Assembly (NCBI GenBank): GCA_945861685.1
Contig: CAMAVO010000012.1
Location: forward strand, 1-33,184
From: Chitinophaga pinensis
Lineage (GTDB): Bacteria; Bacteroidota; Bacteroidia; SXHM01
Length of the DNA: 33,184 nt
Direction: 5' to 3'
The position numbers were made by a program, and so were the translations under genes. Shown in pieces: positions 20,973 through 31,104 of this stretch. Within the stretch, counting starts at the first letter, position 1; the number at the start of each line of letters is the position of its first letter. The notes below the pieces were generated by a model. That model was not told the origin of the DNA. It saw nothing but the letters and a program-made list of their open reading frames with translations, and searched no databases.

Positions 20973-22400
20973 TTATTTAGTTAAAGTTATGGGCCCTATA
21001 AACGTAGTCTTCATTTTATATAACAACTCATCACCAGAGTAAATTCCAATAGTGAATTTTGATTTCATTTTCTTCAGATCAGTTTTGCTGGCATAAATAA
21101 ATAATGCTCCCTGCGCAATACCTTGTTCATTAACCACAATGTTTTCATGCGCCACTAATTTAATTTCAATATTAGAGTCAAGTGGCTTTAAGGTAAGTGG
21201 AATTGCATGATTTGTTTTATTGATGATTTTGTAATTATACAGGTTACTGATTTTACCGCCCTCCTGTTCCTGGTAAAGCATTCCCGGAGTGCGCAACAAG
21301 GTTGCTGAAATATCGCTGCGGGTAATTAGCAATGCTGTCATTGCAATAATCAACAACGTCAGCAATGTTGAATATGCTTTCATCCGCGTAGTAAATTTAA
21401 ACGGCTTGCCTTCTGCAATCTCACTCTCAGAAGCATACCGAATCAGACCTGGCTTCATATTCACACTCTCCATCATGTGGTTGCAGGCATCAATACAAGC
21501 GGTGCAGTTCACGCATTCCAACTGGGTTCCGTTGCGGATATCAATTCCGGTGGGGCAAACATCAACGCAATGGTGACAATCTATACAATCACCTTTTCCT
21601 GTTTCAACACGGTTTTCGTTTTTGTGAAATTTAGCACGCGACTCACCACGCACTTTGTCATAAGCCACTACAATGGAGTTACGGTCAAGCAACACACCCT
21701 GCAACCTTCCGTATGGACAAACCACCAGACAAACCTGCTCACGAAATCTGGAAAATACTCCGTAAAACACTGCACTGAAAATCATAATGGAAGTAAGACC
21801 TCCGATATGTTGTTGAGGAGGGTCTGTAATGATTTTCATCAACTCATCACTGCCAATTATGTAAGCAAGAAACGTATTGGCAATAAAAAATGAGATGATA
21901 TAAAAAACAACATGCTTCAATGTTTTCTTCCATATTTTCTCTGTATTCCAAGGCATTTTATCCAATGCTTGTTGTTGTTTCCAATCGCCTTCAATCCAGT
22001 ATTCAATTTTACGAAATACCATTTCCATAAAAATGGTTTGCGGACAAACCCATCCGCAGAATACCCTTCCGAAAATAACCGTGAAGACAATGATGAAAAC
22101 TAAAAATGTAATCATCGCCAAGCCGAAAATATAAAAATCCTGTGGCCAGAAAACCTGCCCGAATAACACAAACTTGCGCTGGATAATATTCATCATCAGC
22201 AATGGCTCACCACCGATGCGGATAAAAGGACCTGAGAATAAAAAAGCAAGAAGAACTACGCTTACAATCGTGCGTGCATTATAATACTTGCCTCCCGGCT
22301 TTTTAGGAAATATCCACCTGCGGTCACCTTCTTTATTAATGGTGCTGATAGAATCCCTGAAGGTTCCTTCGGGATCCTTTATATCAAAATTGATAGCCAT
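20973..22400 (-). CDS. ccoG: Cytochrome c oxidase accessory protein CcoG (FixG/RdxA), 4Fe-4S
   Basis: FGRVFCGWVCPQTIFMEMVFRKIEYWIEGD; CLVVCPYGRLQGVLLD; CIDCHHCVDVCPTGIDIRNGTQLECVNCTACIDACNHMM. Confidence 0.95.
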   Translation of the reverse strand: MAINFDIKDPEGTFRDSISTINKEGDRRWIFPKKPGGKYYNARTIVSVVLLAFLFSGPFIRIGGEPLLMMNIIQRKFVLFGQVFWPQDFYIFGLAMITFLVFIIVFTVIFGRVFCGWVCPQTIFMEMVFRKIEYWIEGDWKQQQALDKMPWNTEKIWKKTLKHVVFYIISFFIANTFLAYIIGSDELMKIITDPPQQHIGGLTSIMIFSAVFYGVFSRFREQVCLVVCPYGRLQGVLLDRNSIVVAYDKVRGESRAKFHKNENRVETGKGDCIDCHHCVDVCPTGIDIRNGTQLECVNCTACIDACNHMMESVNMKPGLIRYASESEIAEGKPFKFTTRMKAYSTLLTLLIIAMTALLITRSDISATLLRTPGMLYQEQEGGKISNLYNYKIINKTNHAIPLTLKPLDSNIEIKLVAHENIVVNEQGIAQGALFIYASKTDLKKMKSKFTIGIYSGDELLYKMKTTFIGPITLTK

Positions 22401-22477: not shown

Positions 22478-23641
22478 TTACTGATTAACTGCAACAGGCG
22501 CCTTCGCACTGTCTGGAGCTAAACTGTCAGGCTGTGCAGCAGGCACTCCGCCTTCTGTCCATAATTCACCCTGTGGCTCTTTTGGATTAGCAGGATTGCT
22601 TCCTTTCAGTGTAAGGATGTAGCTCGCCACTTCCTGTATCTGCACAGGTGTAAGCTGTGCTTCCCATGCTATCATACCTTTTGCGGGCACTCCGTATTTT
22701 ATGGTTTTGAAAACGTTATGTATTCCTCCTCCGTTTATCCAATATTCATCTGCAAAGTTAGGCCCTACTCCACCCTCACCTGCCTGTCCGTGACAAGCTG
22801 CGCAAAAGGTTTTAAATGTTTCCTTTCCTTTATCCAATTGTGCTGTTTCTGTAAAAGCTACCACCGTATTTTCATCTACTTTTGCTCCTGCCTTTGCAAG
22901 AAACGCTTCTTTCTGCAAACGTCCTTCTTCCATAGACTTCTCATACTCGGCAATCTGTAAATCTCCTTTTCCGGTGATGTGATAATAAGTAAGGTAAACA
23001 CCTGCAAATGCAATGGTGAAATAGAAACCCCAAATCCACCAAGGTGGCAGGTTGTTATCCAGCTCACGAATGCCATCGTATTCATGGTCCATCATAATCT
23101 CACCTTCGCGCTCAACAGGCACTGCATCATTCAATGCGCCTGCCCAGATGTCTTGTTTTACAGGTGCTGCTTCAACAACCTCTTCAGGTTTTAAACTTTT
23201 CAGCAGATTTTTTATAAGCAAAAGAATAGCAAATAACAGTGACAGCAACACAAAGTTTACTACAACCAATACCCAGAAAATATCTTCTGTCATTACAACC
23301 AACGGTGCAGCTTCAGGACTTGCCGCCTGAGCAAATGCTGATGTTGCAGGAAGTGTCATCAATGCAATAAGGATTACAGATGCTGCTTTGTTTCCTGCTG
23401 CTCTTTTAAGCCACAGATCTTTGTTAGAAACAATGCTTTTTAAAACTCCTGCCAGCACTATAATGAGTATCAGCAGGAACAAAGCCAATCCGCTGAGAAA
23501 CCAGAACGTTGATGTTTCGGTTGCGAATTTCAAATTTCTCCAAGGCACCTGAGGTGTTTCGGCTGCCATCAGGTTTCCTGACAAAAAGAGCATGAATGCA
23601 GACAAGGCTGCTTTCTGAACTATATTTTTGATGTGGTTCAT
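22478..23641 (-). CDS. ccoP: cbb3-type cytochrome c oxidase CcoP subunit with extended N-terminus and one CxxCH
   Basis: DHEYDGIRELDNNLPPWWIWGFYFTIAFAGVYLTYYH (CcoP N-terminal domain) and FKTFCAACHGQAGEGGVGPNF. Confidence 0.9.
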   Translation of the reverse strand: MNHIKNIVQKAALSAFMLFLSGNLMAAETPQVPWRNLKFATETSTFWFLSGLALFLLILIIVLAGVLKSIVSNKDLWLKRAAGNKAASVILIALMTLPATSAFAQAASPEAAPLVVMTEDIFWVLVVVNFVLLSLLFAILLLIKNLLKSLKPEEVVEAAPVKQDIWAGALNDAVPVEREGEIMMDHEYDGIRELDNNLPPWWIWGFYFTIAFAGVYLTYYHITGKGDLQIAEYEKSMEEGRLQKEAFLAKAGAKVDENTVVAFTETAQLDKGKETFKTFCAACHGQAGEGGVGPNFADEYWINGGGIHNVFKTIKYGVPAKGMIAWEAQLTPVQIQEVASYILTLKGSNPANPKEPQGELWTEGGVPAAQPDSLAPDSAKAPVAVNQ

Positions 23642-23869: not shown

Positions 23870-25999
23870 TTATTTCTGTGCCTGTGCTTTATCTGCTTTT
23901 ATATCGGTACCCAAACGTTGCAGGTAAGCGATAAGCGCAATGATCTCCGTGTTAGGCAATGCCTGTATTTTATCTTTCTCCAGATTTTTAACAATCTGTT
24001 GTTCCTGGTAAACAAGGTCGGCATTGGCAATCTTATCATAACCTTCGGGATAAGGAACACCAATTGTGCGCATGGCATTAATTTTAGCTGCTGTGTTTGA
24101 TGTATCCAACTCGCTGGTGTGTAACCATGAGTAGGCTGGCATAATAGTTCCTGCGCTCATGCTCTCAGGATCCAGCATGTGGTTGTAGTGCCATGAGTCA
24201 GGATATTTTAAACCTTCGCGGTGCAAATCTGGTCCTGTACGTTTTGAGCCCCACAAGAAAGGATGGTCATATACAAACTCACCTGCTTTGCTGTACTCAC
24301 CGTAACGTTCTGTTTCAAAACGGAACGGACGAATCATTTGTGAGTGGCAGTTGTTGCAACCTTCGCGGATATAAATATCGCGACCCTGCAACTCAAGCGG
24401 AGTGTATGGCTTAACGCTTGCAATGGTTGGTATATTGGATTTGATCAGGAAGGTAGGAACAATCTCAATGAGTCCACCAATAGAAACCAAGACTAAAGAG
24501 AACAACAACATCTGAATTGGTCTGCGCTCAATCCAACGGTGCCATCCTTCGCCTGCATGTGCGGTGTAATCTTTTGACAGCGCAGGAGCTTCTGCTGCTT
24601 CGTTGTCAACAAAGTTTCCGGCTTTAACGGTTTTAACAACGTTGTAAAGCATTACAAAAACACCGCTCAGATACAACAGACCACCGAATGAACGCAGTGC
24701 ATAAAGTGGTTTCAGCTGTGTTACTGTTTCAAGGAAGTTAGGGTATGCAAGGAAACCTTCGGGAGTAAATTGTCTCCACATTCCGAACTGGGTTAAACCT
24801 GCCCAATACATCGGCAGTGCATAGAAGATAATTCCCAATGTAGCCAGCCAAAAGTGTGTGTTAGCTAATTTCTCGGAATACAGTTTGGTGTTAAACATTT
24901 TCGGGATCAGGAAGTAAATGATACCGAAAGTGAGCAGACCATTCCAACCCAACGCACCAATGTGAACGTGTGCAATAGTCCAATCGGTAAAGTGACTGAT
25001 GGCATTTACTGATTTCAATGAAAGCATAGGACCTTCGAAGGTTGACATACCGTAGCAGGTAATGGCCACCACCATAAATTTCAATACCGGATTTTCACGC
25101 ACTCGATCCCATGCACCACGCAGGGTAAGCAATCCGTTAATCATACCGCCCCATGATGGCGCAATGAGCATGATAGAGAAAACGGTACCTAATGATTGCG
25201 CCCAATCAGGTAAAGCAGTGTAAAGCAAGTGGTGAGGACCTGCCCAGATGTAAAGGAATATCAGCGCCCAGAAGTGAACGATGGAAAGTCGATAAGAGTA
25301 AACCGGACGATTTGCAATTTTTGGAATGAAATAATACATCAAGCCCAAGTAAGGTGTTGTTAAGAAAAACGCCACTGCGTTGTGACCATACCACCATTGT
25401 ACTAGCGCATCCTGTACACCAGCATAAAACGAATAGCTTTTGAATAAACTAACCGGGATTTCAAAAGAGTTAACAATGTGCAGCACGGCAACGGTTACAA
25501 ACGTTGCGATGTAGAACCAGATAGCTACATACAAGTGGCGCTCTCTGCGTTTGATAATGGTCATAAACATATTCAGACCAAACACTACCCAAATCAGTGC
25601 AATGGCAATATCAATGGGCCATTCCAACTCTGCATATTCTTTACTGGTGGTTAATCCCAGGGGAAGTGTTACCGCTGCAGCTACAATGATTAACTGCCAA
25701 CCCCAGAAATTTATTTTACTGAGGGTATCGTTCCACATACGTGCTTTCAGCAAACGCTGCAGTGAATAATAAACACCCATAAAAATTCCGTTTCCGACAA
25801 AGGCAAAGATGACTGCGTTTGTATGCAGCGGACGAATACGCCCAAACGTTGTGTAGGCAAAATTGAAGTTAAGCACAGGAAATACCAATTGCAGAGCAAT
25901 GAGTAATCCTACCGTCATGCCTACAATACCCCACAGGATGGTGGCGTAGGCAAACATTTTCACAATCTTATTGTCGTAAGAGAATTTTTCGGTTTCCAT
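23870..25999 (-). CDS. ccoNO: Fused cbb3-type cytochrome c oxidase subunits I and II (CcoN-CcoO)
   Basis: CcoN part (RPLHTNAVIFAFVGNGIFMGVYYSLQRL, WWYGHNAVAFFLTTPYLGLMYYFIPK, WTIAHVHIGALGWNGLLTFG) and CcoO part (YIREGCNNCHSQMIRPFRFETERYGEYSKAGEFVYDHPFLWGSKRTGPDLHREG) in one frame. Confidence 0.96.
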   Translation of the reverse strand: METEKFSYDNKIVKMFAYATILWGIVGMTVGLLIALQLVFPVLNFNFAYTTFGRIRPLHTNAVIFAFVGNGIFMGVYYSLQRLLKARMWNDTLSKINFWGWQLIIVAAAVTLPLGLTTSKEYAELEWPIDIAIALIWVVFGLNMFMTIIKRRERHLYVAIWFYIATFVTVAVLHIVNSFEIPVSLFKSYSFYAGVQDALVQWWYGHNAVAFFLTTPYLGLMYYFIPKIANRPVYSYRLSIVHFWALIFLYIWAGPHHLLYTALPDWAQSLGTVFSIMLIAPSWGGMINGLLTLRGAWDRVRENPVLKFMVVAITCYGMSTFEGPMLSLKSVNAISHFTDWTIAHVHIGALGWNGLLTFGIIYFLIPKMFNTKLYSEKLANTHFWLATLGIIFYALPMYWAGLTQFGMWRQFTPEGFLAYPNFLETVTQLKPLYALRSFGGLLYLSGVFVMLYNVVKTVKAGNFVDNEAAEAPALSKDYTAHAGEGWHRWIERRPIQMLLFSLVLVSIGGLIEIVPTFLIKSNIPTIASVKPYTPLELQGRDIYIREGCNNCHSQMIRPFRFETERYGEYSKAGEFVYDHPFLWGSKRTGPDLHREGLKYPDSWHYNHMLDPESMSAGTIMPAYSWLHTSELDTSNTAAKINAMRTIGVPYPEGYDKIANADLVYQEQQIVKNLEKDKIQALPNTEIIALIAYLQRLGTDIKADKAQAQK

Positions 26000-26002
26000 A
26001 AT

Positions 26003-26176
26003 TTATTCGGGTTTTGTTTGTTCTTTGTTATCTGAGGGTGTGTCGTTAAAAAGCATGCGGACAGATGGCGTGTAGTCATCTTCGTACTGGTTATTTTTTA
26101 CCGCCCATAAAAAGGCAATTAAAAAACCTACTGCTACTACTAGACTAATTCCGATGAGGAGGAAGATGGCGCTCAT
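26003..26176 (-). CDS. ccoS: cbb3-type cytochrome oxidase assembly protein CcoS
   Basis: MSAIFLLIGISLVVAVGFLIAFLWAVKNNQYEDDYTPSVRMLFNDTPSDNKEQTKPE. ATG at 26176 preferred over the GTG at 26194, which lies in the -7-like element. Confidence 0.9.
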   Translation of the reverse strand: MSAIFLLIGISLVVAVGFLIAFLWAVKNNQYEDDYTPSVRMLFNDTPSDNKEQTKPE

Positions 26177-26193: not shown

Positions 26194-26258
26194 CAAAAAT
26201 GCATAGCAGATAATACTCTACTAATGATTGGGGTCAGTGAAAAATATGATTTATGTCA
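26194..26258 (-). promoter_or_regulatory. Dual CRP/FNR-geometry box promoter of the cbb3 operon
   Basis: Minus strand: TGACATAAATCA (26258-26247), TGACCCCAATCA (26236-26225), CATTTTTG (26201-26194). Box start-to-start 22 bp; box to -7-like element 31 bp. Confidence 0.72.
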
Positions 26259-26325: not shown

Positions 26326-26333
26326 TACTTTTG
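26326..26333 (+). promoter_or_regulatory. TAnnTTTG -7 element of the divergent lipoprotein gene
   Basis: TACTTTTG, 6 nt before the ATG at 26340. Confidence 0.4.
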
Positions 26334-27135: not shown

Positions 27136-29535
27136 TTACAGTTTCATCCTCAACGCCATTAGCTTCACGCTAACCGTAACAAAGGCAACCACCGTAATAG
27201 AGCTCAGCGGCATAAGCAGAGCCGCAAAAACAGGAGAGAGCAAACCCTGCACCGCAAAGCTAAGCCCCACCGCATTATACAGCAGCGATATCACCAGCGA
27301 GATACCGATAATAAGTGATGATTTTTTTGCAAATGCAATGAGTAGTGGAAGCTTTTGAAAATTGCTGCCCTCCAAAATTCCATCGCAAGCAGGCGAAAAA
27401 TTATTCAGGTTGTTAGAAACCGAAATACCTATGTCGCTTTGTTTCAGCGCACCGGCATCGTTCAGCCCGTCACCCACCATCAACACCTTGTGTTTATTAC
27501 TTTGCCGGTCTTTTACAAAATCTAATTTATCCTGCGGTGAATAGTTAAAGCGCAATACCGCACCCGCAGGAAAAACAGTGCTCAGCGTTTTTTCTTCCGA
27601 GGCATTATCACCCGAAACAAGCGCCAGTTCATACCCAGATGAAAGCGTATGCAGCATTTCATTCAGTCCCTCACGATACTGAATGTTAAGACTGAAAACG
27701 CCTTTGTACTTACCATTGATGTTTACATACACACGTGAAGATTTAACGTTGCCGCTGTCAACCGCGCCTGCAAAAGCAGCAGCACCTGCCTTCAGTTCCA
27801 TATCTCCTGCCCTGCCCTTAATTCCTTTTCCGGGAAGTTCAGAAAAACTGCTGACATCTTCCTGTCCGCCTACGAAAATGCTTTGCGCAATGGCGGTGCT
27901 CAGCGGATGCGAACTCTGACTGAACAATGATTTAAGCGCAACCAGTTCCTGTACATTCAATTCTTCGCCTTCATACACCACCTGCGAACCACCGGCAACA
28001 GTAATAGTTCCTGTTTTGTCAAAAACAAGATGAGTGGTTTTGGCAATGCTCTCCACCACTGCTGCATTCTTCAGGTAAAAACCATTCTTACCAAAAACGC
28101 GAACAATGTGTCCCAACGTAAATGGCGAAGACAAAGCCAAGGCGCAGGGACAGGCAATAATCAACACCGCAGTAAAAGCGTCCAGTGCCTTGTGCAGGTC
28201 AGACGGCAGCCACCACAAAGCCGAACCAACAGCAATGAGAATAATAGCCACGGTAAAATATTTACTGATAACATTAATGAGCGGTTCGTGTTTGTCTTTA
28301 TCCTTTGTCGAAAAGATTTCATTGTTCCACAATTCGGTCAAATAACTCTGCGAAACATTTTTTATCACTTCCACTTTAATGGCACTGCCGCATTGCTTGC
28401 CTCCTGCAAAAACAGTGGCGCCATTGGATATCTTCACAGGTTGCGATTCTCCTGTTACAAAACTGTAGTCAATATTAGCATCACCCGAAAGCAATACAGC
28501 ATCAGCAGGAATAATTTCGCTGTTGCGCACCAAAATACGATTGCCTACCTTTAGTTTTGAAAGCGGAATGCTTTGCTCTTCTTCATTCTTTAACAACGTA
28601 ACCGCTACCGGAAAATACGATTTATAATCTCGCTCAAACGACAGTGTGTGATACGTCTGGTTCTGAAACCAGCGCCCCACCAGCATCAAGAAAACCAGGG
28701 CAGCCATTGAATCCATGTAGCCAGGTCCGGCTTGCAACACAATTTCGGTAACGCTGCGGATAAACATTACCGCAATACCCAATGCAATGGGCACATCAAT
28801 ATTGATAAACTTCTGGCGCAGGCTGTAGAATGCTGATTTAAAAAACTCGGCAGCGCTGTAAAAGAAAACCGGAAGTGATAATGCAATATTCAAATACCCG
28901 AACAACAATTTAAACGATGGTTCAAGTACCGATTTACCCGTCAAGTATTCAGGAAAACTGAGCAGCATAATATTACCGAAACAGAAACCTGCCACTCCTA
29001 TTTTATACCAGCGCGAATAATCTTTCTTTTGTTTTATTGTCTGTTCGTCTGCCAGGTTTATCTCAGGAGGATAACCGATGTTGGCAAGCAAATCAGCCAC
29101 TTCAGCCAACTGAATTTCCTTCTCCATAAAGAGAATGGTTACTTCCTTTTTCAGAAAATTAACACGCGAAGAAATAATGCCTTGGTTCAGTTTCGACATA
29201 TTCTCCAGCAGCCAAATACATGAACTGCAATGCACCTGTGGCACACGGAAGTTTACAGTAGATTTTTGTCCGTCCGAAAAACTAATAAGTTTTTCGCGCA
29301 GCGCGGCATCACGCAAATAACCATACCTGCTCTTAGGTTGATTCCTTTGTGAAATTCCCGGACGGGTATTAAGACTGTAATACGTGCACAGATTATTCTC
29401 GTCCAGAATTTCGTAAACCAATTTACAGCCTTCACAGCAAAAACTTTTTCCGTTTGCCAGAATAGTTTCTTCTGCGCAGTTCTCACCACAGTGCGTGCAT
29501 TTAAGTGCTTTTCCTACATTGGTATATTCTGACAT
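27136..29535 (-). CDS. ccoI: Copper-translocating P1B-type ATPase (CcoI/FixI)
   Basis: N-terminal CTHCGENC...CCEGCKLVYEIL; HMA-type CSSCIWLLENM; CPC in ILIIACPCALALSSPF; DKTGTITVAGG; MVGDGLNDAGALKQSDIGISV. ATG at 29535; ORF track begins at a TTG at 29547. Confidence 0.93.
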   Translation of the reverse strand: MSEYTNVGKALKCTHCGENCAEETILANGKSFCCEGCKLVYEILDENNLCTYYSLNTRPGISQRNQPKSRYGYLRDAALREKLISFSDGQKSTVNFRVPQVHCSSCIWLLENMSKLNQGIISSRVNFLKKEVTILFMEKEIQLAEVADLLANIGYPPEINLADEQTIKQKKDYSRWYKIGVAGFCFGNIMLLSFPEYLTGKSVLEPSFKLLFGYLNIALSLPVFFYSAAEFFKSAFYSLRQKFINIDVPIALGIAVMFIRSVTEIVLQAGPGYMDSMAALVFLMLVGRWFQNQTYHTLSFERDYKSYFPVAVTLLKNEEEQSIPLSKLKVGNRILVRNSEIIPADAVLLSGDANIDYSFVTGESQPVKISNGATVFAGGKQCGSAIKVEVIKNVSQSYLTELWNNEIFSTKDKDKHEPLINVISKYFTVAIILIAVGSALWWLPSDLHKALDAFTAVLIIACPCALALSSPFTLGHIVRVFGKNGFYLKNAAVVESIAKTTHLVFDKTGTITVAGGSQVVYEGEELNVQELVALKSLFSQSSHPLSTAIAQSIFVGGQEDVSSFSELPGKGIKGRAGDMELKAGAAAFAGAVDSGNVKSSRVYVNINGKYKGVFSLNIQYREGLNEMLHTLSSGYELALVSGDNASEEKTLSTVFPAGAVLRFNYSPQDKLDFVKDRQSNKHKVLMVGDGLNDAGALKQSDIGISVSNNLNNFSPACDGILEGSNFQKLPLLIAFAKKSSLIIGISLVISLLYNAVGLSFAVQGLLSPVFAALLMPLSSITVVAFVTVSVKLMALRMKL

Positions 29536-29543
29536 TGAAGAAG

Positions 29544-29720
29544 TCAATTGGCTTTCTTACCCCAGAAAAACATAGTGCCGAGGAAACCAAAAATTGTAAA
29601 CAGGAAACAGAATACACCTTTTACAGGGTGTGCCAAATCAATATTAAAATAAGCAACAGGCATAAAAATAAAGTAGGTAATTGCAGCTATTACAACAGCT
29701 ATCATTTTGTTTTTGTTCAT
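29544..29720 (-). CDS. 58-aa membrane protein directly upstream of ccoI (not in supplied ORF track)
   Basis: Reverse-complement translation MNKNKMIAVVIAAITYFIFMPVAYFNIDLAHPVKGVFCFLFTIFGFLGTMFFWGKKAN*: two hydrophobic segments. Confidence 0.75.
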   Translation of the reverse strand: MNKNKMIAVVIAAITYFIFMPVAYFNIDLAHPVKGVFCFLFTIFGFLGTMFFWGKKAN

Positions 29721-29749: not shown

Positions 29750-29814
29750 CAAAAATGCGAGAGCTACTGTGGCTACAAACTGATTGTAGTCAGCAGAATC
29801 GGTGATTTATGTCA
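29750..29814 (-). promoter_or_regulatory. Dual CRP/FNR-geometry box promoter of the ccoI operon
   Basis: Minus strand: TGACATAAATCA (29814-29803), TGACTACAATCA (29792-29781), CATTTTTG (29757-29750). Same 22-bp and 31-bp spacings as the 26194-26258 module. Confidence 0.72.
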
Positions 29815-29829
29815 GTTTTTCGGAATTTC

Positions 29830-31104
29830 TTACTCCGCAAACAACGGAAACTTGCTCATCATCTTGTTCACTTCCTTCTTCACCGCTTTCAATACAGCGT
29901 CATCTTCCGTGTTCATCAGCACAATATCAATAAGGTCAACAATAGCGGGAATGTGTTTCTCTTTCAGCCCTCTGGTAGTAATGGCTGCCGTTCCTACTCG
30001 GAAACCCGAAGTAACAAACGGAGACTTATCATCAAACGGAACCATATTCTTATTTACCGTTATGTCAGCTTTTACCAAGGTATTCTCAGCCACTTTTCCG
30101 TTCAGGTTTTTGCTGCGCAGATCAATCAGCATACTGTGATTATCCGTACCACCCGAAACTACATCATAACCTTTTGCCATAAATTCTTTGGCCATCAGTT
30201 GTGAGTTTTTCACCACCTGAACACAGTATTTCAGATATGAATCCGAAAGTGCTTCGCCAAACGAAACAGCTTTTGCAGCAATCACATGTTCCAACGGCCC
30301 GCCCTGTATTCCCGGAAATACAGCCCCGTTCAATACTGCCGACATCATTTTAATTTCTCCTTTCGGTGTTTTATGTCCCATCGGGTTTTCAAAGTCTTTA
30401 CCCATCATAATAATTCCACCTCTTGGTCCGCGCAAAGTTTTATGAGTTGTTGAAGTAACAATATGGCAATGCGGCATCGGGTCATTCAAAATTCCGCGTG
30501 CAATTAATCCTGCAGGGTGAGCAATATCAGCTAGCAACAAAGCACCAACCTTATCAGCAATCTTTCTCATGCGTTTAAAATCCCAATCGCGTGAGTGTGC
30601 CGATGCACCTGCAATAATCAGTTTTGGTTTTTCTTTAATGGCCGTTTTTTCCATGGCATCATAATCCACTCTGCCGTTAGATTTTTTCACGCCATAAAAA
30701 ACAGGGTTATACAACATTCCTGAATAGTTCACCGATGAACCATGCGATAAATGTCCGCCCATGGATAAATCCAATCCAAGAATGGTATCACCGGGCTTCA
30801 ATACAGCCAGCATCACCGCTGCATTGGCCTGTGCTCCCGAGTGTGGTTGCACGTTCGCATATTCAGCATTGAACAACGCTTTCAAACGGTCGATAGCCAA
30901 TTGTTCTACAATATCTACTACCTCGCAGCCACCATAATAACGCTTGCCGGGATACCCCTCTGCATATTTATTAGTAAGCACCGATCCCATGGCTTTCATC
31001 ACATCATCGCTCACATAATTTTCTGATGCTATGAGTTCAATTCCCACTGTCTGGCGGTGGCGTTCTTTTCTAATCAGGTCAAAAATGGCTGTATCTTTTT
31101 TCAT
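29830..31104 (-). CDS. glyA: Serine hydroxymethyltransferase
   Basis: [64 protein letters not shown]...; PLP lysine motif [15 protein letters not shown]. Start set at ATG 31104; the longer ORF to 31209 runs into the divergent gene. Confidence 0.95.

Follow-up and report, generated by a model that had tools for sequence, protein, structure and literature searches.

Tandem FNR-type boxes at fixed spacing before ccoI and the cbb3 oxidase operon of a Bacteroidota genome, and a candidate receiver-Crp regulator

The window, the whole stretch of 33,184 nucleotides analysed here, carries the genes of a cbb3 oxidase and, in a separate transcription unit, ccoI, whose product is thought to be the pump loading copper into the oxidase. 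A sequence-only reading of this DNA had noted the same arrangement of short boxes before both units. Is the arrangement more than chance, what kind of promoter would it form, and which protein would read it?

Two modules of one geometry in the cco cluster

The boxes and the genes that follow them, all on the minus strand, are:

29803..29814, minus strand: distal FNR-type box TGACATAAATCA of the ccoI promoter, predicted centre -63.5
29781..29792, minus strand: proximal FNR-type box TGACTACAATCA of the ccoI promoter, predicted centre -41.5 (class II position; -7 placement from PMC9723704)
29750..29757, minus strand: -7 element CATTTTTG of the ccoI promoter, TAnnTTTG with one mismatch, predicted start ~29745
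29544..29720, minus strand: ORF58, a 58-aa membrane ORF that opens the ccoI transcript; its place before ccoI is kept in the genus (81-93% identity)
27136..29547, minus strand: ccoI, copper-type P1B ATPase (matches to heavy-metal/copper P-type ATPase models; location within the cco cluster)
26247..26258, minus strand: distal box TGACATAAATCA of the ccoS-ccoNO promoter, identical to the ccoI distal box
26225..26236, minus strand: proximal box TGACCCCAATCA of the ccoS-ccoNO promoter
26194..26201, minus strand: -7 element CATTTTTG of the ccoS-ccoNO promoter, predicted start ~26189
26003..26176, minus strand: ccoS, first gene of the oxidase operon (TIGR00847)
23870..25999, minus strand: fused ccoNO, cbb3 oxidase subunits I and II (NF011053, TIGR00780, TIGR00781)
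22478..23641, minus strand: ccoP-like cytochrome c subunit (TIGR00782 below its cut-off; gene order)
20973..22400, minus strand: ccoG (TIGR02745)

On the minus strand from 29814 to 29750, the ccoI module reads TGACATAAATCA-N10-TGACTACAATCA-N23-CATTTTTG and is followed by ORF58 and then ccoI. The ccoS-ccoNO module (26258-26194, minus strand) is identical in order, step and gap. The box-to-box step is 22 bp in both, and the 31 bp from the proximal box to the end of CATTTTTG are made up of a 23-bp gap and the 8-bp element. The letters and spacings given by the sequence-only reading for the two modules (identical distal box, 22-bp step, 31 bp) were thus all recovered, and its account of the oxidase operon is refined in that the first gene is ccoS, not ccoN. 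The FNR type of the boxes, the -7 identity of CATTTTTG and the candidate regulator are added here.

The boxes are FNR/FixK-type palindromes, TGAY-N4-RTCA, the half-site pair of regulators of that type, and they contain the TGA-N6-TCA of class II FNR/CRP promoters. Written in IUPAC code each box is its own reverse complement, so a module takes its direction only from the -7 element and the gene. CATTTTTG matches TAnnTTTG with one mismatch, C for T at position one in both window promoters. The possibility that the module before ccoS also drives the lipoprotein gene at 26331, in the opposite direction, was rejected, as by eye the plus strand has no -7 element 23 bp past the last box.

The ORF58 product is a two-helix membrane protein encoded directly before ccoI in the genus, and it had no Pfam or NCBIfam match. 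CcoNO proteins 70-76% identical to that of the window are encoded on MAG contigs assigned to Calditrichota, Ignavibacterium, Neomarinimicrobiota and Limisphaerales (L026, L035, L039, L086). The promoter module is absent from these four contigs, and their CcoNO is likely to reflect horizontal transfer or a binning error.

Recurrence of the paired boxes in the genome and across Bacteroidota

The genome assembly (3.04 Mb, 88% complete) was scanned with fixed patterns and reversed-pattern controls. The strict pattern, TGAYN4RTCA-N10-TGAYN4RTCA, gave 7 tandem pairs vs. 0 in the control, with ~0.02 per 3.04 Mb genome expected from base composition; when one mismatch was allowed, 12 pairs were found vs. 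0. Two of the strict pairs lie in the window, and 300 first-order Markov windows hold none. This genome scan of the paired spacing had been set beforehand as the check, and its outcome is above chance.

Conservation was then considered among relatives. Exact pairs were present in 35 of 60 of them, with no control matches. For 80 ccoN loci taken from named genomes, the upstream regions were scanned at varied gap and step: 57 loci matched at a gap of 23 bp vs. 0-9 at any other gap (reversed control at gap 23, 0), and tandem boxes scored in 35 loci at a step of 22 bp vs. 0-7 at any other step. Of the box pairs found within 100 bp at these loci, 26/36 were spaced by 22, and the gap to the -7 element was 23 bp in 97/120 matches from 23 genomes. 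The geometry is kept across families while the spacers diverge.

Identical distal boxes and an identical CATTTTTG in the two modules could also mean that the likeness is accidental or that one promoter was recently duplicated in place. Against this stand the zero control matches of the strict pattern in every genome scanned, on which chance was rejected, and the geometry kept across families with diverged spacers. The same-genus genomes contain both modules, ~3.6 kb apart and each with its own diverged spacers; since the spacers differ in the window as well, the ccoI module did not arise by recent copying of the ccoS module, as the earlier reading had held in speaking of conserved architecture and no obvious recent duplication. 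We regard chance or duplication as having practically no probability; the module is real and far from chance.

The tandem modules of this genome carry a -7-like element at 23 bp. They are found before a cytochrome c-nosZ unit, RIC (ScdA_N/hemerythrin), a CBS-domain protein (weak -7), a DUF465 protein, unassigned genes and a fasciclin-domain lipoprotein, where the other side of the module faces a gene preceding an Rrf2 regulator. The operon including hemN (TIGR00538; contig C30, L205:2435-2500) is preceded by two boxes whose step is 23 bp, again with a -7 element 23 bp away, showing that the step is not absolutely rigid and that the 23-bp gap is kept. A haem-binding-domain protein gene has a single box 23 bp from its -7 element. 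With nosZ, RIC and hemN, the targets are microaerobic, haem and N-oxide genes. The proposal of the sequence-only reading, one regulon for the oxidase operon and the copper ATPase, is supported at sequence level by this recurrence, and ccoS/NO, ccoI and other microaerobic genes are predicted to form a single regulon.

The ccoN promoters occur in two forms, 33 tandem and 18 with the proximal box only, the latter mostly in Flavobacteriaceae. The proximal box is strong in the single form. Tandem promoters have a near-perfect distal box, while their proximal box retains TCA downstream and often lacks the G in TGA upstream. An upstream half-site TAA in the proximal box was found in 14/33 tandem and 0/18 single-box promoters (Fisher p = 0.0008, the species not being independent). 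This pattern fits a distal dimer aiding a weak proximal dimer, that is, cooperative binding.

A class II promoter reading and its candidate regulator

Proteins of the CRP/FNR family activate as class II activators from position -41.5. In Bacteroidota, TAnnTTTG serves the primary sigma factor as -7 element (PMC7366714, PMC9723704), and in F. psychrophilum it spans -12 to -5 (PMC9723704). Setting the -7 element at these published positions places the box centres of the window modules at -41.5 and -63.5, and the predicted start sites ~5 bp past CATTTTTG. TA..TTT is near invariant across 51 ccoN promoters, as expected of primary sigma promoters of this phylum. No -33 TTTG was conserved at a fixed position in the 23-bp gap of the tandem ccoN promoters; it was likewise not found in F. 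johnsoniae (PMC7366714).

On this reading the primary sigma factor would depend on an activator at each module. A CRP/FNR-family dimer on the proximal box would activate RNA polymerase as a class II activator, and a second dimer on the distal box, two turns upstream and on about the same helix face, would most likely stabilise the first through cooperative binding.

Four recognisable Crp-like proteins are encoded in this genome, and two have E...R reading residues: a fusion on contig C70 (TESVIR) and a 179-aa protein on contig C101 (PETLSR). The C70 protein has 351 aa and the order receiver-cNMP-HTH_Crp (domains by Pfam). CRP residues 180 and 181 are tied to specific site bases (Rodionov et al., PMC1274295). 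When its reading helix is compared with VETISR of E. coli FNR, the fusion keeps the Glu, has the FNR-type Glu and Arg, and has no Arg at the position of CRP Arg180; the helix is therefore FNR-like, and CRP-type specificity was rejected. The Fe-S cysteine set is absent from the fusion, which has one Cys.

In five same-genus genomes (G001, G002, G003, G004, G006) the order is universal stress protein / array / ArsR-kinase-receiver-Crp / module / ORF58-ccoI / module / ccoS. In all five the receiver-Crp operon has modules of this kind at its head and immediately precedes ORF58-ccoI, making the receiver-Crp protein the best candidate regulator. The ccoI module has a step of 22 in 4/5 of these genomes and of 23 in G003. 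In the genome of the window, the operon of kinase and receiver-Crp maps to a different contig, and the place upstream of the ccoI module is taken by glyA (29815-29830; compare L208-L212). The glyA junction, a rearrangement or an assembly join, lies only ~15 bp away from the distal box, and the module has thus stayed with ccoI.

On C70, a triple array (L021:218-273; boxes at 218, 240 and 262, each 22 bp apart) serves two divergent promoters, that of the universal stress protein and that of ArsR-kinase-receiver-Crp, and the middle box is the distal box of both. Three-box shared arrays are likewise present at L209, L210 and L211.

The first PAS domain of the kinase resembles the haem PAS of FixL, and the second is close to the FAD-type PAS of 3ewk (MmoS), Aer and NifL; this likeness points to oxygen or redox as the signal. 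A similar kinase is encoded directly upstream of a receiver-domain protein in 14/34 other genomes. We propose that the PAS-PAS histidine kinase, encoded just upstream, phosphorylates the C70 protein, and that low oxygen or a reduced state would in this way turn on the cbb3 oxidase, CcoI, N2O reductase, RIC, HemN and the sensor operon itself. Induction of the F. psychrophilum cbb3 oxidase by oxygen limitation (PMC9723704) fits this explanation. From these sequence features the activator here is most likely the receiver-Crp fusion, and the explanation as a whole, a class II activator promoter with a cooperative distal dimer and the C70 protein as regulator, appears probable to us; the C at the first base of both -7 elements speaks against it.

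The same promoter mechanism could be served by a stand-alone FNR with an oxygen-labile Fe-S cluster, the receiver-Crp protein being otherwise employed or sharing the sites. Cysteine FNRs (CxxC and two further conserved Cys, helix VGTATES.IR) adjoin ccoI in many genomes, including Flavobacteriaceae, and tandem boxes occur in genomes where the fusion was not found (L029, L043, L047). Three same-genus genomes (G001, G003, G006) carry both the fusion and a cysteine FNR, whose own gene is preceded by a tandem-like module. However, no stand-alone cysteine FNR was found in the genome of the window (88% complete) or in G004 (91% complete), and we judge this reading unlikely for the present locus, though with some weight. 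Those three genomes, and other clades, encode a stand-alone cysteine FNR whose reading helix is nearly identical, so the fusion may not be the sole reader, and from clade to clade the boxes may be read by different sensors, one working by phosphorylation and the other probably by an Fe-S cluster. The association between tandem boxes and the fusion is weak (20/34 vs. 6/16) and clade-linked, and we do not claim that the boxes depend on the fusion.

In stand-alone FNR-like proteins (near ccoI at L029, L043, L076, L090, L101 and L104; also L217-L219), CxxC is followed by Cys ~49 and ~102 residues on. This spacing differs from that of E. coli FNR, and a variant Fe-S ligand set is possible.

A short Crp-like protein might read the boxes instead. 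The 179-aa C101 protein keeps the E and R positions in PETLSR, but it matched no HTH_Crp_2 model and had no neighbourhood link to cco genes in the loci read, so we hold this to be quite improbable. Operators of the ArsR family can also contain TGA...TCA inverted repeats, and the boxes could be repressor operators, for example for the ArsR-type protein heading the sensor operon. The fixed predicted placement at -41.5 is, however, the activator position, and the ArsR gene was detected in this genus only while the boxes span many families; the ArsR-type protein was rejected as box binder, and repression is given very little credence. The receiver-Crp fusion as class II activator is the reading carried forward.

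Comparison with known systems

The module is apparently an undescribed, widespread variant of class II FNR promoters; no account of this motif in Bacteroidota was found in the open-access literature, of which coverage was incomplete. More tentatively, and with doubt outweighing confidence, many Bacteroidota could use a condensed FixL-FixJ-FixK cascade for microaerobic respiration and N2O reduction, in which a PAS kinase acts on a receiver-Crp protein and two cooperative dimers at -41.5/-63.5, distinct from single-site class II FNR, are tunable by degeneracy of the proximal half-site. One regulon would join the cbb3 oxidase, copper ATPase, haem synthesis, NO repair and nitrous oxide reduction, and N2O reduction by Bacteroidota bears on a greenhouse gas. 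The rigid 22/23-bp geometry would make the regulon predictable from sequence alone, giving a precise and testable regulatory grammar for low-oxygen respiration, with a likely regulator named, in a phylum about whose transcription control little is known.

The modules share the -7 TAnnTTTG with sigma-ABfr promoters of Bacteroidota, but the first -7 base is C in the two window promoters, there is no fixed -33 TTTG, and an activator box closely precedes the -7 element. HcpR2 of Bacteroides and Porphyromonas (PMC1274295) is likewise a CRP/FNR-family regulator of Bacteroidota with sites from comparative genomics. Its motif is GTAAC-N4-GTTAC, its Glu181 is changed to Pro and its regulon is mostly hcp only, whereas here the Glu is kept and the motif is TGAY-N4-RTCA.

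The class II promoters of FNR/ANR/FixK in Proteobacteria have TTGAT-N4-ATCAA at -41.5, with fixNOQP and fixGHIS under FixLJ-FixK. Shared with the present module are the TGAY-N4-RTCA core, a predicted activator position of -41.5 and the targets (cbb3 oxidase, ccoI/fixI, hemN and nosZ). The module differs in that (i) it has a second box at a rigid 22-bp step; (ii) the Bacteroidota -7 element at 23 bp replaces the sigma-70 -10; (iii) there is no conserved T before TGA; and (iv) the likely regulator is a receiver-Crp fusion. With the rhizobial FixL-FixJ-FixK system the proposed circuit would share a PAS sensor kinase, a receiver domain and control of cbb3 genes by a CRP/FNR output. In contrast to that system, receiver and Crp output are joined in one protein, and the FixJ-to-FixK transcription step would be dispensed with.
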